From assembly GCA_913056525.1 (NCBI GenBank), contig CAJXLO010000017.1, positions 1-32,937 of the forward strand: DNA of 32,937 nt, written 5' to 3'. The stretch's first letter is position 1; every line of letters starts with the position of its first letter. This DNA is from an uncultured Psychroflexus sp. (GTDB taxonomy: Bacteria > Bacteroidota > Bacteroidia > Flavobacteriales > Flavobacteriaceae). Below are positions 4,569-32,934 of this stretch, one piece after another. The notes beneath the pieces were generated by a model. It was not told where the DNA came from, did no database searches, and worked only from the letters and a program-made list of their open reading frames with translations. The position numbers and the translations under genes were made by a program.

Positions 4569-6713
4569 TTGAAAAACCTCTCTTATATCACATTGTTTTG
4601 CTTGTTGCTCTCTACAGGCAGATCATTTTCTTATGATTCCCCAAATCAAGTGAAGGATTCAACTGATGCAAAGGAGATCATCAGAATGGTGGTACATAAT
4701 GCCAGCGATAATCATCTTCCTGATAAGGATAGGCCAATTTACTTCAAATCCCATTATAAGGTCAACATCAGCCCCAGATTTTCAGGTCAGGACATTGACC
4801 GGTCAAAGATCTTCTACTCGGAAAGGATCAGTGATCATCTATTTAAACATAAGTATCAATTGAACGAAAAGATCATCGACCAGCGTACCTTAGGTTTTGA
4901 ACAGCCACTGAACGAGGTCCTGGCCACGAAGATATTCAGCTTTAATTGGTTCAGGAGCGATTTTGTCTTCTTTAATGAAACCTATGCCAGTCCATTGTCG
5001 TTAAGCAATATGGGAAAATATACGTATCAACTCGTTGCATCAAGAAAGGATGTTTATATCATACGGTTTAGCTCAAATAGAAAAGGCAATTTCCTCAAGG
5101 GAAATTTGACCATCGATAAAAAAGACCATGCCATAAAGCACATATCCATTCAGCATGATAAAAGGATCAAGATATTAGGTAGTTTTAGATATGAATACAA
5201 GGCCTCCTTAGAAAAATGGATGCCAATAGATTATTTCTTACAGATGAAACCTGGGAAAGGAGGAAAACGGTTTGCTGTATTCAGCGGTCTTATCGATCTG
5301 GGGTTACTTCAAAAGAAAAGTAGTCTATCCGATGAAGAGACCAGAAGTCTTACAGCATCCATCCGATATTTTGATCATCAGAAGAGACCGAATCAAGCGC
5401 AAGGTCAGGATTATCATATAAGTCTTACCGATAGCACGGATACGAAGAACTTTAAAAAGGTAAGTAAGCTCAACTACACAGATGAAGAAGAAAAGTTGAT
5501 AAGGGACTTTGATAGTGTGAACCTTAGCGAAAAAGTTAAAAATAACATCTATCGGGTAACAAGGGTGAATGATGGTTTTCTGCCCGTAAATTTATGGAAC
5601 ATTGACCTAAAGACACTTATCAAAGTCAACAATTTTGAAGGCTTAAGACTTGGGTTTGGCGGTCAGACCAACTCAAGGTTATCTAAACGGTTCAGGTTGG
5701 GCGGTTATACAGCCTATGGTACTAAAGATGAGAATATTAAGTTCGGCATTAATACCCAGTTCAAGGTAGATAAGGACAAGAATACCTGGTTAAAACTAAA
5801 TTATACGGATGATGTGCGGGAAGTAGGGAACACTTCCTATTTGACAGATGAACGAGTTTATTCGCTATTCGAACCTCGATTGGTAAACATCATCTTTTTT
5901 TACAAAGAGCGATCTTCCGCTATAAGACTACAAAGTAGATTACTTCCCAGGTTGTTGTCAGACTTTAGGATATCTTACGATCAGATAGAGACCACATCTG
6001 ATTATAGGTTCCTGTTAAACAATAGGTCCATCGCTTATTATAACCTGAACAAATATCAAACAAGTCTTAGATGGATGCCCAACAATAAATACCTTTTAGC
6101 TAATCAAAAAGTAAATGAAGTAAGTAAGCGATCACCCTTCTTATCCCTACAGCTCACACAAGCTTTTGGCGGAGATGTTGGAATAGATGATTTCTCCTTC
6201 ACGAAGATCAACTTTAAGGTGAACTATATCAAAAACTGGTATAGTGGAGCGAAAACCGATGTTCTACTAGAATCCAATTTAGCTTTGGGTGATGTTCCTT
6301 TAACCCACGCTTATCATGCTTTTCCTAATAATCCAGTTAAAGGTAAGCTCATAGAACGGTTTTCTGTTGCCGGCGTAAAGAGTTTTGAAACGATGTTCTT
6401 TAATGAGTTTTTCTCTACGCGATTAGCATTTCTACATTTCAAACATCAGCTGAGACCATTCCACATATCCGATGCGATCCAACCAGAACTGGTGTTCATT
6501 TCCCGGCATGGCATTGGGGATTTCAAGGACCGCGAGAACCATCAAGGTGTGAATTTTTCTACCATGGATAAAGGTTTTAATGAAGTTGGCCTGGAGCTTA
6601 ATAAGATATATGCCGGATTCGGTTTAAGCTTTGCCTATAGATATGGAGCATATCATCTACCGGACCTTAAGGATAATTTATCTTTCAAGTTCACTTTTTA
6701 CTTTAACATTTAG
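4569..6713 (+). CDS. DUF5686 family outer-membrane protein
   Basis: Predicted exported protein, 714 aa from a TTG at 4569, which gives a classic signal peptide (MKNLSYITLFCLLLS followed by a TGRSFS cleavage region). TTG codons at 4539 and 4545 are alternatives that would lengthen the n-region. The mature protein begins with IIRMVVHNASDNHLP and continues with a Y/F-rich region (IFYSERISDHLF, FFNETYASPLSL) typical of the DUF5686 family. The last 300 or so residues alternate polar and aromatic residues and end in FKFTFYFNI, consistent with a beta-barrel closing on an aromatic strand. It lacks the carboxypeptidase-regulatory-like domain that precedes DUF5686 in many relatives. Function is unknown; placement after frr and before an MMPL exporter recurs in flavobacteria. 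Confidence 0.8.
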   Translation: MKNLSYITLFCLLLSTGRSFSYDSPNQVKDSTDAKEIIRMVVHNASDNHLPDKDRPIYFKSHYKVNISPRFSGQDIDRSKIFYSERISDHLFKHKYQLNEKIIDQRTLGFEQPLNEVLATKIFSFNWFRSDFVFFNETYASPLSLSNMGKYTYQLVASRKDVYIIRFSSNRKGNFLKGNLTIDKKDHAIKHISIQHDKRIKILGSFRYEYKASLEKWMPIDYFLQMKPGKGGKRFAVFSGLIDLGLLQKKSSLSDEETRSLTASIRYFDHQKRPNQAQGQDYHISLTDSTDTKNFKKVSKLNYTDEEEKLIRDFDSVNLSEKVKNNIYRVTRVNDGFLPVNLWNIDLKTLIKVNNFEGLRLGFGGQTNSRLSKRFRLGGYTAYGTKDENIKFGINTQFKVDKDKNTWLKLNYTDDVREVGNTSYLTDERVYSLFEPRLVNIIFFYKERSSAIRLQSRLLPRLLSDFRISYDQIETTSDYRFLLNNRSIAYYNLNKYQTSLRWMPNNKYLLANQKVNEVSKRSPFLSLQLTQAFGGDVGIDDFSFTKINFKVNYIKNWYSGAKTDVLLESNLALGDVPLTHAYHAFPNNPVKGKLIERFSVAGVKSFETMFFNEFFSTRLAFLHFKHQLRPFHISDAIQPELVFISRHGIGDFKDRENHQGVNFSTMDKGFNEVGLELNKIYAGFGLSFAYRYGAYHLPDLKDNLSFKFTFYFNI

Positions 6714-28977: not shown

Positions 28978-30546
28978 TCATTCGTCATTAAAGTTGATGC
29001 TTTCGTAAGCACCGGCATCAGGATTTGAGGTCCTATCCTTGCCCAGGATATCAAATGGTACTTCATTTGCTGTGGACGGATCTCCAAGGTTGTTCGCAGC
29101 ACTTTCATCACCTATGATAAGGTCATTATCCGAAGGAGACCTGAAATCTGGACCTTGGTTGATCAACACGGATTCATAGATATCAGTATCCTCAAAATCA
29201 TAAAGGGGTAGATCCTCGAACTGATCTTCAAAGTCCTGGAACTTTATCAAAGTGTTCTTAAAGGAGGCATTAAAGGCGGTTTCACCGTTATTGTTCATGA
29301 TCAATTCGCGTCTTTCATTTCCGTAGATGATGCTATTTTCAAAAGAAGCTTCTACAAGGTCTTCAGTTAAGGTATCCTGATCCGCTGTAACGAAAAAATT
29401 ATTGATCAACACACTGGGAAACTGACGAAAAGATTGTTGCCAGTAGTTAGCTATCGTGCTGTGTTTAAATTGATATTTTCCACCAAAAGATAAGAATAGT
29501 GAAGCTTGTCCGCAATTGTTGACAACCAGATTTTCAGCGGCGATATGCGCCGTTCTTCCTAAAATCCCAATAGTTGAACAATTATATATTTGGGTGTTAT
29601 CAATAGATAAAGTAGGTTCTTGAAGTCCATCATTGGATTCCATTAAGATACCTACGGTAGCATTCTTAATGGTCGTGTGGCTAAATTGATGATCTTTACT
29701 GCCGGCGGTAAGCCAAATGGTGCTCCACTGTCCAGGCACATCTGAAAATTCTGGCTCTAATCTATCGCTTTCAAAGATGATCTCATTTTCCATGAGTTCC
29801 TCATCTTGACTTGGTAAACCATTGGCCTGAACAGAAGCCTGATCAGCAGCAATTATCCCACTATTTTCGTGAAAATGAATTCTTGCGCCGGGTTCTATTG
29901 TTAAGGTTTTTCCACCTGGAACGCCGGCAAAACCATAAATGACATAAGGTTTTTCATCCGTAAAGTTTAAATGTTCATCATCTAAGAAAAAACCTTCTAT
30001 TCTTATTTCTTCGCCGTCTTCATTCGTTCCTAAAAGCAGGCTTTCTGTTGTTCCATCTGCAAAACGATCGGGAAAAAGGAAAATGGCATCTTGTATCAGG
30101 CTTACTAAATTGACATCCTGTAAGTTACTACCGGTATCAAAATTAATTTGGTCTTCGTAGATAAATTGGGTTCCGGCATTGGATAATGCTTCAATATCAG
30201 CAGTTACTTCAACAAAGACAAACAAGCTGTCATTGGCTAATATCGGTATATCGGTAAATGTTTTTCCGGGGATCCCATCTACATTTAATCGATAATTGGA
30301 ACTTTCTCCCTGACCTAGAGCGATCTTAGGGATGTTGATGTCTTCATCACTTCTGTTATAGACCTTGAACTGATAGGTACTGGAAGAAATATCAGAAAAT
30401 ACGGTATCCAGGAAAACCGTGTCCTGGGAAAATTCTAAATTACCCTGACTGGGAATGGTCTCAAAATCATTCCTACAACTGGAAAGAAAAAAAATACCGG
30501 CTAAAAGGATGTTTATTAAAATTAACGAAGTTATTTTATTTTGCAT
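28978..30546 (-). CDS. Lipoprotein, probable right-handed beta-helix protein
   Basis: 522 aa from the ATG at 30546; an upstream ATG at 30582 would overlap the neighbour. The signal is MQNKITSLILINILLAGIFF, with the lipobox ending at Cys24 (FLSSC). Residues about 35-120 resemble an Ig-like beta sandwich (SQDTVFLDTVFSD, STYQFKVYNRS). The rest, with repeated short hydrophobic strands and Asn/Ser turns (HQFSHTTIKNATVGILMES, TQIYNCSTIGILGRTAHIA), fits a parallel beta-helix with a PGARIHF capping-like start. Surface binding or carbohydrate interaction is plausible; no catalytic motif is visible. It is the last gene of the tight three-gene unit, 4 bases after the channel gene. Confidence 0.75.
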   Translation of the reverse strand: MQNKITSLILINILLAGIFFLSSCRNDFETIPSQGNLEFSQDTVFLDTVFSDISSSTYQFKVYNRSDEDINIPKIALGQGESSNYRLNVDGIPGKTFTDIPILANDSLFVFVEVTADIEALSNAGTQFIYEDQINFDTGSNLQDVNLVSLIQDAIFLFPDRFADGTTESLLLGTNEDGEEIRIEGFFLDDEHLNFTDEKPYVIYGFAGVPGGKTLTIEPGARIHFHENSGIIAADQASVQANGLPSQDEELMENEIIFESDRLEPEFSDVPGQWSTIWLTAGSKDHQFSHTTIKNATVGILMESNDGLQEPTLSIDNTQIYNCSTIGILGRTAHIAAENLVVNNCGQASLFLSFGGKYQFKHSTIANYWQQSFRQFPSVLINNFFVTADQDTLTEDLVEASFENSIIYGNERRELIMNNNGETAFNASFKNTLIKFQDFEDQFEDLPLYDFEDTDIYESVLINQGPDFRSPSDNDLIIGDESAANNLGDPSTANEVPFDILGKDRTSNPDAGAYESINFNDE

Positions 30547-30550
30547 ATGA

Positions 30551-31660
30551 TTATTGATTGATGCCATATTCTGAAAGAACAACTTCCCAGTCTTTAGTTT
30601 GAGTTACTTTTAGTAAAGACAACGAAAGTTCACGTTTAAAATTATCTGGCAACTTCCTATTCAAGCCTAATGCATAATATTGAGCGTTATACTGGATAGG
30701 CAGTAATTTAAACCGATCTAAGCTATCTTTTTTAATGATAGACTGTAAAAGCGGCTGGTCATAAGCAATAGCATCTACTTTTTTATCTAGTAATACATCT
30801 TCAAATTCAGAAGGCTTTTCTACCGCCAAGCGATTAGTAAAAAAATGATCTTCTAACCATTTCTCTGTGGCAGAAGCTTGAATGGTAGCTAACTTTTTAT
30901 CTTTAAAATCCTTCATTTCATCTCCGCCAGAATCAATTTGATTGACCGTAAGTGAGGAAGCTATACTAGCCGTAAAACCGGATATGATAATAATCGCCGT
31001 GAACATCCATATCAGAGCCACTATTCTACCGCCGGTGGTTCGGGGTGATCGATCGCCATACCCTACGGTGGTCATTGTAACCGCAGACCACCAAAAGCCT
31101 TCCCACAAACCTTTTATCCCTTTGTCGAATTCTTCTTCATTCGCTTTTCGCTCAAAAAGCCATTCTAAAAAGCCAAAGATCAAAATAACGACTGCTAATC
31201 CGCCTAAAGCTTTGAAAAAATTCATCGAGAAAAAGGAAGCAAGAAAAGCCATTGCCTTTTCAAATGCCGATCTTTGTTCTACCATTATTCCGGCTTGAAC
31301 CGTTTGAAAAGCTTCGGTGAAATCAAAATGAGCTAATCGATCTGCATTCACGGTTAACGGTGACATGCTGATATCAACTTCACCCGATCTTAAAGCTGAT
31401 AAAAGCGCTTCATGAGACATCTGTCTATAGTTAAAATTAATATCCTGATCTGCAAACACTTCCTGCCATAACCAATAGGACGGACCATTTAGTTGACCTT
31501 TTTCTTTGTTAAGAAATGGTGGTGATAAAGTATATCCTACTTCAAGCGTATCTTTTTTAATATCTAATGATGTATTGTAAAGATCCATATCAGCAGAAAA
31601 TGAACTTGCTGAAATCAATTGAAACACTAGTAAAAAGGTTAATAAATGTAATGATCTCAT
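30551..31660 (-). CDS. GluR0-like bacterial ionotropic glutamate receptor, ligand-gated potassium-channel protein
   Basis: 369 aa. A signal peptide (MRSLHLLTFLLVFQLISASS) leads into a periplasmic binding-protein lobe (about 36-130). This lobe has LEVGYTLSPPFL and the ligand-carboxylate arginine in SPLTVNADRLAHFDFTEAF (Arg108). The lobe is interrupted by TM1 (about 148-168), a pore helix and the K+ selectivity filter TTVGYGD (197-203), and TM2 (about 212-238), which carries SGFTASIASSLTV (227-239), a relative of the SYTANLAAF gating motif of eukaryotic iGluRs. The second binding lobe (about 245-369) follows, with Asp301 in AIAYDQPLL at the amino-group position. This topology is that of GluR0. 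It lies 7 bases after the cyclotransferase gene and 4 before the lipoprotein. The ligand is unproven. Confidence 0.9.
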   Translation of the reverse strand: MRSLHLLTFLLVFQLISASSFSADMDLYNTSLDIKKDTLEVGYTLSPPFLNKEKGQLNGPSYWLWQEVFADQDINFNYRQMSHEALLSALRSGEVDISMSPLTVNADRLAHFDFTEAFQTVQAGIMVEQRSAFEKAMAFLASFFSMNFFKALGGLAVVILIFGFLEWLFERKANEEEFDKGIKGLWEGFWWSAVTMTTVGYGDRSPRTTGGRIVALIWMFTAIIIISGFTASIASSLTVNQIDSGGDEMKDFKDKKLATIQASATEKWLEDHFFTNRLAVEKPSEFEDVLLDKKVDAIAYDQPLLQSIIKKDSLDRFKLLPIQYNAQYYALGLNRKLPDNFKRELSLSLLKVTQTKDWEVVLSEYGINQ

Positions 31661-31667
31661 ATTCCTG

Positions 31668-32753
31668 TTATTTTTCTTTTAGTTGGATCTCAAACAATTT
31701 ATCCCAATTCTTACCAGTGACAAAGATCTTATCAGTAGATCTTTTGTAGGCAATTCCATTTAGAACGCTTTCCGGCGAATCGATAGCTACTTTTTCTTTT
31801 AATTTTCTGAAATCAATAACGCCATCCACAGCACCATTTTCAGGGTCGATGATCAAAACGCCATCTTTTTGATACATATTAGCATAGATCTTACCCTTGA
31901 TCCATTCTAACTCATTGAGTTTATCTGTTATTTTATTGTGCGTAGTAGGTTGAATATGATCGATCTCTTCAAGCGTTTCCGGGTCTAAGCGCCATATTTT
32001 AGGCGTGCCATCACTTTTGTAGAGATATTTACCATCGTTGCAAATGCCCCAACCTTCTTTGCTCTTGCCGTAAGAAAAACTTCTTTTCTCCTTTAAAGTT
32101 TCTGAATCGTAGATAAAACCGATATCCGATCGCCAGGTAAGTTGATAGACCTGATCGTTTAAAACGGTAATGCCTTCACCAAAAAAACGGTCGTTTAAGC
32201 GGACGTGATCATACGTTTCACCGGTCTTGTGATCGATCTTCATCAACTTAGAAGAACCGCGTTGACCGGTTCCTTCATATAAAGTGTCTTGATAAAATTC
32301 TAAACCCTGCGTATAGCTTGACTTTTTATGCGGATACGTGTTGATGATCTCATATTCATAAAGTCTTGGCTTTTGATCATTGTAGATCTTTATCCATTGC
32401 TTAATATCAACGGATTTTTCACCCACTTTGATATTAGCTTTCAGTTGATACTTTCCTAGTTTAAGACCGGAAGTTGGAATTTGAAATGTATTATCTGTTG
32501 ATGGTTTTTCGCCGCTGACATCCTGGAATTGATAAGTTACAGATTGATATTTAATAGGTTCATCTGTTTTTAGATCAATAGAAATAGTATCGCCTAATTT
32601 ATATTCCGTTTTATCAAGTGAAAGTTTGAATTTCTTAGCTAAATGTTGTTCACCGCAGGATGAAAATGTAAATAATACCATTAAAAGTAATATCGCTAAA
32701 GACGTCACAGGTAACGCGGAAGGCGTCACAGGTAAAACATATCGGCATTTCAT
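31668..32753 (-). CDS. Glutaminyl-peptide cyclotransferase (glutamine cyclotransferase family) lipoprotein
   Basis: 361 aa. The signal peptide runs to Cys33 in the lipobox FSSC. Residues about 40-125 form an Ig-like domain (LDKTEYKLGDTISIDL). A beta-propeller of the plant-type glutamine cyclotransferase family follows: INTYPHKKSSYTQGLEFYQ, LYEGTGQRGSSKLMKID, FFGEGITVLNDQVYQLTWR, ELEWIKGKIYANMYQKDG and PESVLNGIAYKRSTDKIFVTGKNW. It converts N-terminal glutamine of proteins to pyroglutamate, here on the envelope surface. The n-region is partly encoded by a 21-bp tandem duplication, so the start region is unusual. It is the first gene of the channel cluster. Confidence 0.9.
   Translation of the reverse strand: MKCRYVLPVTPSALPVTSLAILLLMVLFTFSSCGEQHLAKKFKLSLDKTEYKLGDTISIDLKTDEPIKYQSVTYQFQDVSGEKPSTDNTFQIPTSGLKLGKYQLKANIKVGEKSVDIKQWIKIYNDQKPRLYEYEIINTYPHKKSSYTQGLEFYQDTLYEGTGQRGSSKLMKIDHKTGETYDHVRLNDRFFGEGITVLNDQVYQLTWRSDIGFIYDSETLKEKRSFSYGKSKEGWGICNDGKYLYKSDGTPKIWRLDPETLEEIDHIQPTTHNKITDKLNELEWIKGKIYANMYQKDGVLIIDPENGAVDGVIDFRKLKEKVAIDSPESVLNGIAYKRSTDKIFVTGKNWDKLFEIQLKEK
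32694..32735. repeat. 21-bp imperfect tandem duplication inside a signal-peptide coding region
   Basis: 32694-32714 and 32715-32735 are adjacent 21-base units identical at 18 positions, both ending in GTCACAGGTAA. On the minus strand they encode LPVTPSA and LPVTSLA in frame near the start of the cyclotransferase. Similar ALPVT-type repeats turn up as spurious small proteins in flavobacterial genomes, suggesting a dispersed short repeat; that link is from memory and unverified. Confidence 0.7.
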
Positions 32754-32800: not shown

Positions 32801-32830
32801 TTGTCTAACCTAAAGAAGGAATTATATTTG
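32801..32830 (+). promoter_or_regulatory. Strong promoter of the SRP RNA gene
   Basis: TTG (32801-32803), a 19-base spacer and TAtaTTTG (32823-32830) fit the Bacteroidota consensus as well as the rplM promoter does, with the same spacing. Transcription would start within a few bases of 32835, where the RNA's closing stem begins. Confidence 0.88.
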
Positions 32831-32834
32831 CAAC

Positions 32835-32934
32835 GGCAAGTCCTACACAACCAGCTCCTGTTGAATCCTCCAGGGCAGGAATGCAGCAAAGGTAAACGGT
32901 CGTAGCGGTGTGATGTAGGTAGCTTGCCATTTTT
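32835..32934 (+). ncRNA. ffs: Small signal recognition particle RNA (4.5S type)
   Basis: A roughly 100-base RNA. The ends pair as GGCAAG (32835-32840) with CTTGCC (32923-32928), then CCTACA (32842-32847) with TGTAGG (32914-32919). The Ffh-binding domain IV is textbook: CAGG (32871-32874), a 3-bp stem GCA/TGC capped by the tetraloop GGAA (32878-32881), and AGCA (32885-32888), the same order as in E. coli 4.5S RNA. With Ffh it targets membrane and secreted proteins to the Sec translocon. The closing stem followed by a T-run (from 32930) acts as the terminator. The exact 3' end is uncertain by a few bases. Confidence 0.93.

Follow-up and report, generated by a model that had tools for sequence, protein, structure and literature searches.

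An open reading frame in the window, the whole 32,937-nucleotide stretch of Psychroflexus DNA analysed here, likely encodes an inner-membrane potassium channel of the GluR0 type, gated by a ligand and belonging to the accessory genes. The frame occupies positions 30551-31660, begins with ATG, and translates to 369 residues. It lies on the minus strand, which the initial annotation had left unstated. Pfam domains, hydropathy, and matches of a family profile to the PDB identify the gene, whose product would probably be opened by a small molecule from outside the cell. The initial annotation had proposed a GluR0-like receptor at this frame, and that reading is supported by domain content and order, by the selectivity filter, by a pair of pocket residues, and by profile matches to the solved GluR0.

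The protein scores over the Pfam cut-offs for SBP_bac_3 (3e-15), Lig_chan (3.4e-15), and Ion_trans_2 (4.3e-15), and narrowly over that for Ion_trans; in the same scan Lig_chan-Glu_bd falls under its cut-off. The SBP_bac_3 match runs from residue 41 to residue 275 and encloses the pore, a split-domain layout as in glutamate receptors. At the N-terminus, hydropathy marks a signal-like hydrophobic sequence at about residues 1-22 (31595-31660, minus strand, as for every feature of this gene). The two halves of the ligand-binding domain, S1 at about residues 38-128 (31277-31549) and S2 at about residues 249-364 (30569-30916), were delimited by profile alignment together with an AlphaFold2 model. 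Between them lie the transmembrane helix M1 at about residues 147-170 (31151-31222; hydropathy and AlphaFold2 model), a pore helix with K+ filter at about residues 182-203 (31052-31117; Pfam, motif, and family alignment), and the helix M2 at about residues 209-239 (30944-31036; hydropathy and alignments to GluN1 and to the family). The filter itself, TTVGYGD, spans residues 197-203 (31052-31072) within the longer motif TMTTVGYGD at residues 195-203. The binding-protein halves around a two-helix pore that had been described from the sequence are thus borne out. The C-terminal part of M2, SGFTASIASSLTV (residues 227-239), had been likened to the SYTANLAAF motif of animal receptors, and alignment places the channel's SGFTASIAS on the SYTANLAAF region of GluN1, in agreement with that comparison. 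Charge counts around the helices give no decisive topology signal.

When the channel protein is used as a single query, its best match in the PDB is the NMDA receptor subunit GluN1 (2.6e-15). A family profile built from 11 relatives instead returns, at the top, 6h30, a glutamine-binding protein of two domains (4e-46 as the sum of four stretches), followed by 2pyy (5e-36) and then by Synechocystis GluR0 (1iit/1ii5, 1e-32). By family profile, the closest structures of receptors are those of GluR0 and 2pyy. Two separate parts of the profile, at about 34-129 and 241-360, match each of them, and the pore is exactly the part missing from those soluble cores. Plant GLR3.4, GluA2, and GluN1 rank under GluR0, interspersed with amino-acid-binding proteins, and their matches extend through the pore; AncQR and glutamine-binding proteins are matched by the profile as well.

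In GluR0, according to PMC2950845, an Arg and an Asp provide the contacts for the carboxyl and amino groups of the ligand. The S1 and S2 fragments of GluR0, as printed in that paper, were added to the family alignment in a fixed-length mode, which lost two GluR0 residues C-terminal of the Arg. GluR0 Arg pairs with Arg108 (31337-31339) and GluR0 Asp with Asp301 (30758-30760), the positions of the alpha-carboxylate and alpha-amino contacts, and both pairings recur when HMMER aligns the profile to 1iit/1ii5. The placement of these two residues in the initial annotation is therefore confirmed in two alignments.

The better of two AlphaFold2 models, from a 6-row alignment, is of modest confidence (mean pLDDT 68.6, pTM 0.44); the first, from a 4-row alignment, is poor (pLDDT 57.6). 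Ten-residue means of pLDDT across the lobes are mostly 74-86, but drop to 58-60 near Arg108 (residues 101-120) and to 59 at residues 321-330; M1 reaches 74-82, and values below 50 occur in the filter (199-202) and where M2 ends (232-247). Foldseek gives 998 matches to the model at E <= 0.001, and the best 50 consist entirely of AMPA or delta receptor chains, with E from 2e-15 to 5e-14, probability 1.00, and 364-393 columns, at query TM-scores of only 0.27-0.34 and rmsd of 15-18 A. For the clamshell that the initial annotation had envisaged, these values, with E down to 2e-15 at a TM-score of about 0.3, describe a predicted chain whose order is that of an iGluR and whose domain placement is not fixed by the model.

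Loci with related sequences yielded 78 ORF hits. Three of these, L009 and two pieces of L074, score too few bits and were left out; the other 75 represent 65 distinct proteins. Arg108 is conserved in all 65 relatives, Asp301 in 64 (the exception is L077), and the GYGD of the filter likewise in 64 (the exception is L076). Nine of the 65, all from one clade, have STTGYGD. Within the clade that includes the window protein, the five aligned sequences are identical at 10 of the 12 printed pocket positions, and a single sequence deviates at each of the other two, 103 and 105 (L011 and the window protein). By sequence, the protein is a further member of the already known Group 1 prokaryotic iGluRs, which were defined in 2010 by their topology, K+ filter, and conserved Arg and Asp (Ger et al., PMC2950845). 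Its S1 and S2 halves flank two transmembrane helices and a pore loop, its TMTTVGYGD contains the K+ selectivity filter signature TXXTVGYG (PMC6385376), and its ligand-position residues are an Arg in S1 and an Asp in S2. The marks of eukaryotic iGluRs, namely M4, an amino-terminal domain, and a non-K+ filter, are absent from this protein of 369 residues with two transmembrane helices and TTVGYGD. As described in PMC2950845, two Group 1 members are missing a signal peptide, and horizontal transfer of prokaryotic iGluRs is already argued there; the strings Bacteroid*, Chlorobi*, and Cytophaga* are absent from the available text of that paper.

Modelled on GluR0 and on iGluRs for its topology, tetrameric state, ligand class, gating, conduction, and role, the channel may work as follows. 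The signal sequence would direct S1 into the periplasm, M1-P-M2 would form an inverted K+ pore, S2, back in the periplasm, would complete the clamshell, and four subunits would assemble into the channel. An alpha-amino acid gripped by Arg108 and Asp301 would cause the lobes to close, which would pull M2 and open the gate, and the resulting K+ flow would alter membrane potential or turgor. For GluR0 itself, PMC13099474 describes support of K+ uptake in E. coli, a requirement for the soluble domains, and an inverted topology from PhoA fusions, some of which were not statistically significant. The same source describes slower shrinkage upon KCl upshock with GluR0 and better growth of a deletion strain on high-KCl agar.

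Glutamate is not established as the ligand, because glutamine-binding proteins have the same pocket pair and one of them, 6h30, is the top profile match. There is a substantial chance, somewhat short of even, that the same channel is gated by glutamine or some other amino acid, or by a small osmolyte, in which case "glutamate receptor" would be the wrong name. The profile's matches to glutamine-binding proteins and AncQR point in this direction, as do side-chain pocket positions that vary across the family. Position 265, which from a hand alignment we take to correspond to the GluA2 threonine holding the gamma-carboxylate, is S, A, or T across the 65-relative alignment, so side-chain specificity is not readable from sequence. 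Nothing in these data excludes glutamate, however, and the nearest receptor structures by profile remain GluR0 and 2pyy. A different ligand would be compatible with the amino-acid-gated channel preferred here, which specifies the ligand class only.

It is unlikely that the protein acts as a leak channel for K+, with a binding domain that has a structural role or no longer gates in response to ligand. Such a role would fit the finding that GluR0 let an E. coli mutant grow in minimal medium, for which the recipe given lists no glutamate (PMC13099474). Against it, P48 and F49 are conserved in 65/65 relatives, as is R108, with D301 in 64/65.

The GluR0-type gene sits between two neighbours, and the three genes form a tight layout on one strand. 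Upstream, across a gap of 7 nt, is a glutamine cyclotransferase (PF05096 by Pfam; 31668-32753, minus strand); downstream, across a gap of 4 nt, is a lipoprotein-like protein with no Pfam family over cut-off (28978-30546, minus strand, assuming that translation begins at the ATG at 30546). The window also holds, at 32827-32933 on the plus strand, a Bacteroidales small SRP RNA (RF04183, 103 bits), which fits a Bacteroidota genome. The cyclotransferase gene is present in all 22 other genomes of the genus that were searched. Removing from 28 loci the window itself (L103), a contig that ends inside the enzyme (L125), and five loci outside the genus leaves 21 informative for the junction. The cyclotransferase and lipoprotein-like genes adjoin directly in 19 of these, and a ParD/ParE pair separates them in two (L108 and L112). 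That pair was identified by Pfam for the two proteins of L108, of which those of L112 are near copies by eye, and it is followed by a repeat of the cyclotransferase 3' end (L112 by tblastn, L108 by eye). None of the 21 has the channel at this junction. The five cyclotransferase loci outside the genus show no lipoprotein neighbour, which makes the neighbour pair a genus-level feature. Across 77 channel loci, where flanks mostly measure just about 1.5 kb and a number of loci stop at a contig edge, neither flanking gene was found at E <= 1e-3 except at L001 and L024, both of which represent the window's own place.

The gaps of 7 and 4 nt could hint at a functional tie between channel and cyclotransferase, for example the sensing of glutamine, glutamate, or pyroglutamate. 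We consider this quite improbable, as neither neighbour was found beside the channel at the other loci among the 77 compared (L024 being the same place as L001) and 19 of 21 genus relatives keep both neighbours together without it. A conserved partnership of channel and cyclotransferase was rejected on these same grounds. The simplest reading is that the channel was gained at a junction that also accepts other genes, rather than repeatedly lost, and the junction is possibly an insertion hotspot. The GC content of the channel gene (0.368; third-position 0.303) is too near the neighbours' values to argue transfer. Chimeric assembly of the metagenome-assembled genome (80% complete, 0.69% contamination) appears unlikely, because both flanks are the expected genus neighbours and lie on one contig.

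The channel is distributed patchily. In a first survey of 60 genomes at E <= 1e-10, eight matched, the source genome included; one match (G042), a 245-residue ordinary K+ channel frame without lobes, was rejected as a relative, leaving 7 of 60. Within the genus, 6 of the 27 genomes sampled carry the channel, the source genome again included. Profile surveys at E <= 1e-20, which likewise count that genome, found relatives in 48 of 299 genomes at family level (pore-only in G084, in two pieces in G249 and G263) and in 35 of 395 at phylum level (partial, around the pore, in G435, G458, G534, and G630). The two samples overlap, and GluR0-type channels are not rare in the family and phylum sampled. 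Record titles of the relatives include Flavobacteriales and Cytophagales, which, like the SRP RNA, is consistent with the flavobacterium named in the initial annotation; one related protein is found in a metagenome-assembled genome labelled Planctomycetota (L013). Some Group 1 accessions of Ger et al. 2010 reportedly come from Chlorobi. A tree of the 65 proteins places the seven sequences from the genus in three deep lineages: the window with L003; L004, L006, and L007; and L008 with L010. The window protein groups with L003, from the same genus, and with L011, from a metagenome-assembled genome labelled Cytophagales (support 100/96). When proteins of 110 residues or more were compared at E <= 1e-15 among eight channel loci (seven in the genus, plus L016 from another), neighbours were shared only between L015 and L018 (eight besides the channel) and between L019 and L020 (two).

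Distant relatives, with at least 80% protein coverage and 21.8-31.2% identity, occur in 22 plasmid records from Rhizobium, Agrobacterium, Salmonella, Paracoccus, and others, where most are annotated as substrate-binding proteins ("transporter substrate-binding domain-containing protein"). That annotation and the SBP_bac_3 domain might suggest an ABC-transporter binding protein or sensor misread as a channel, but this is scarcely credible for a protein with a full TXXTVGYG pore between two helices, with Ion_trans_2 and Lig_chan over cut-off, and with a pore conserved in its family.

Full-length GluR0-like proteins are encoded on two IMG/VR contigs, at 4962-5972 of a 264-kb record (IMGVR_UViG_3300018080_000099, L080) and at 4998-6026 of a 40-kb record (IMGVR_UViG_3300031746_000064, L079) that is a candidate viral sequence. 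The two proteins are 42% identical to each other, and both have TTVGYGDK, the S1 Arg, and the S2 Asp; both lack the TM2 motif of the window protein, and neither gives a Lig_chan match. Besides phage-type neighbours, the 264-kb record encodes a terminase (PF03237, 1.3e-27); a search for one in the 40-kb record found nothing. None of 50,697 phage records reached 80% coverage of the L080 channel protein. A protein without Pfam match is encoded directly upstream of that channel (L080, 4175-4918), and another precedes the L079 channel by about 3 kb (1068-1877). They share 43% identity across 144 residues, with a C-terminal hydrophobic stretch visible by eye, and the one in L080 is unmatched in the phage collection. 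It is possible that this upstream protein is a partner of the viral-contig channel.

The kind of channel is itself known; what is new here is an accessory, multi-lineage distribution within one genus, together with relatives on viral contigs. The sole physiological study found in the literature searched is that of cyanobacterial GluR0 (PMC13099474). Searches of open-access papers found none pairing GluR0 with "Flavobacteri", one pairing it with "Bacteroid" (PMC5127831), and none on a phage-encoded glutamate receptor potassium channel, results that do not show absence from print; jumbo phages are not named among the matches listed for the phage channel search. As a tentative broader picture, one that may well prove wrong, GluR0-type amino-acid-gated K+ channels could make up a mobile pool of accessory genes, present in Bacteroidota and in phages. 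Several old lineages would come and go in one genus, one of them entering a junction also used by a toxin-antitoxin pair, and large phages would have versions of their own, serving as bioelectric cargo. Because channel genes come and go among close relatives, amino-acid-triggered K+ signalling could be tested by comparing strains that carry the gene with strains that lack it. If the version borne by a phage is functional, a virus would encode a ligand-gated K+ channel.

Among known systems, the best receptor match of the family profile is 2pyy, the binding core of a GluR0 homologue from Nostoc, described in its record as a bacterial homologue; both lobes are matched, and the match covers the binding core only. 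GluR0 (Slr1257) of Synechocystis PCC 6803 (PDB 1ii5, 1iit, 1iiw) shares with the window protein the S1-pore-S2 order, the K+ filter, and the Arg/Asp pair, its pore being compared here as given in PMC13099474. GluR0 belongs to another phylum, however, and the comparison stands at profile level and covers the lobes only (E 1e-32). Animal AMPA and NMDA receptors and plant GLR receptors share the arrangement of binding lobes around a pore, with SYTANLAAF aligned to SGFTASIAS of the channel; in contrast to them, the window protein has no amino-terminal domain and no M4, and it retains the K+ filter.
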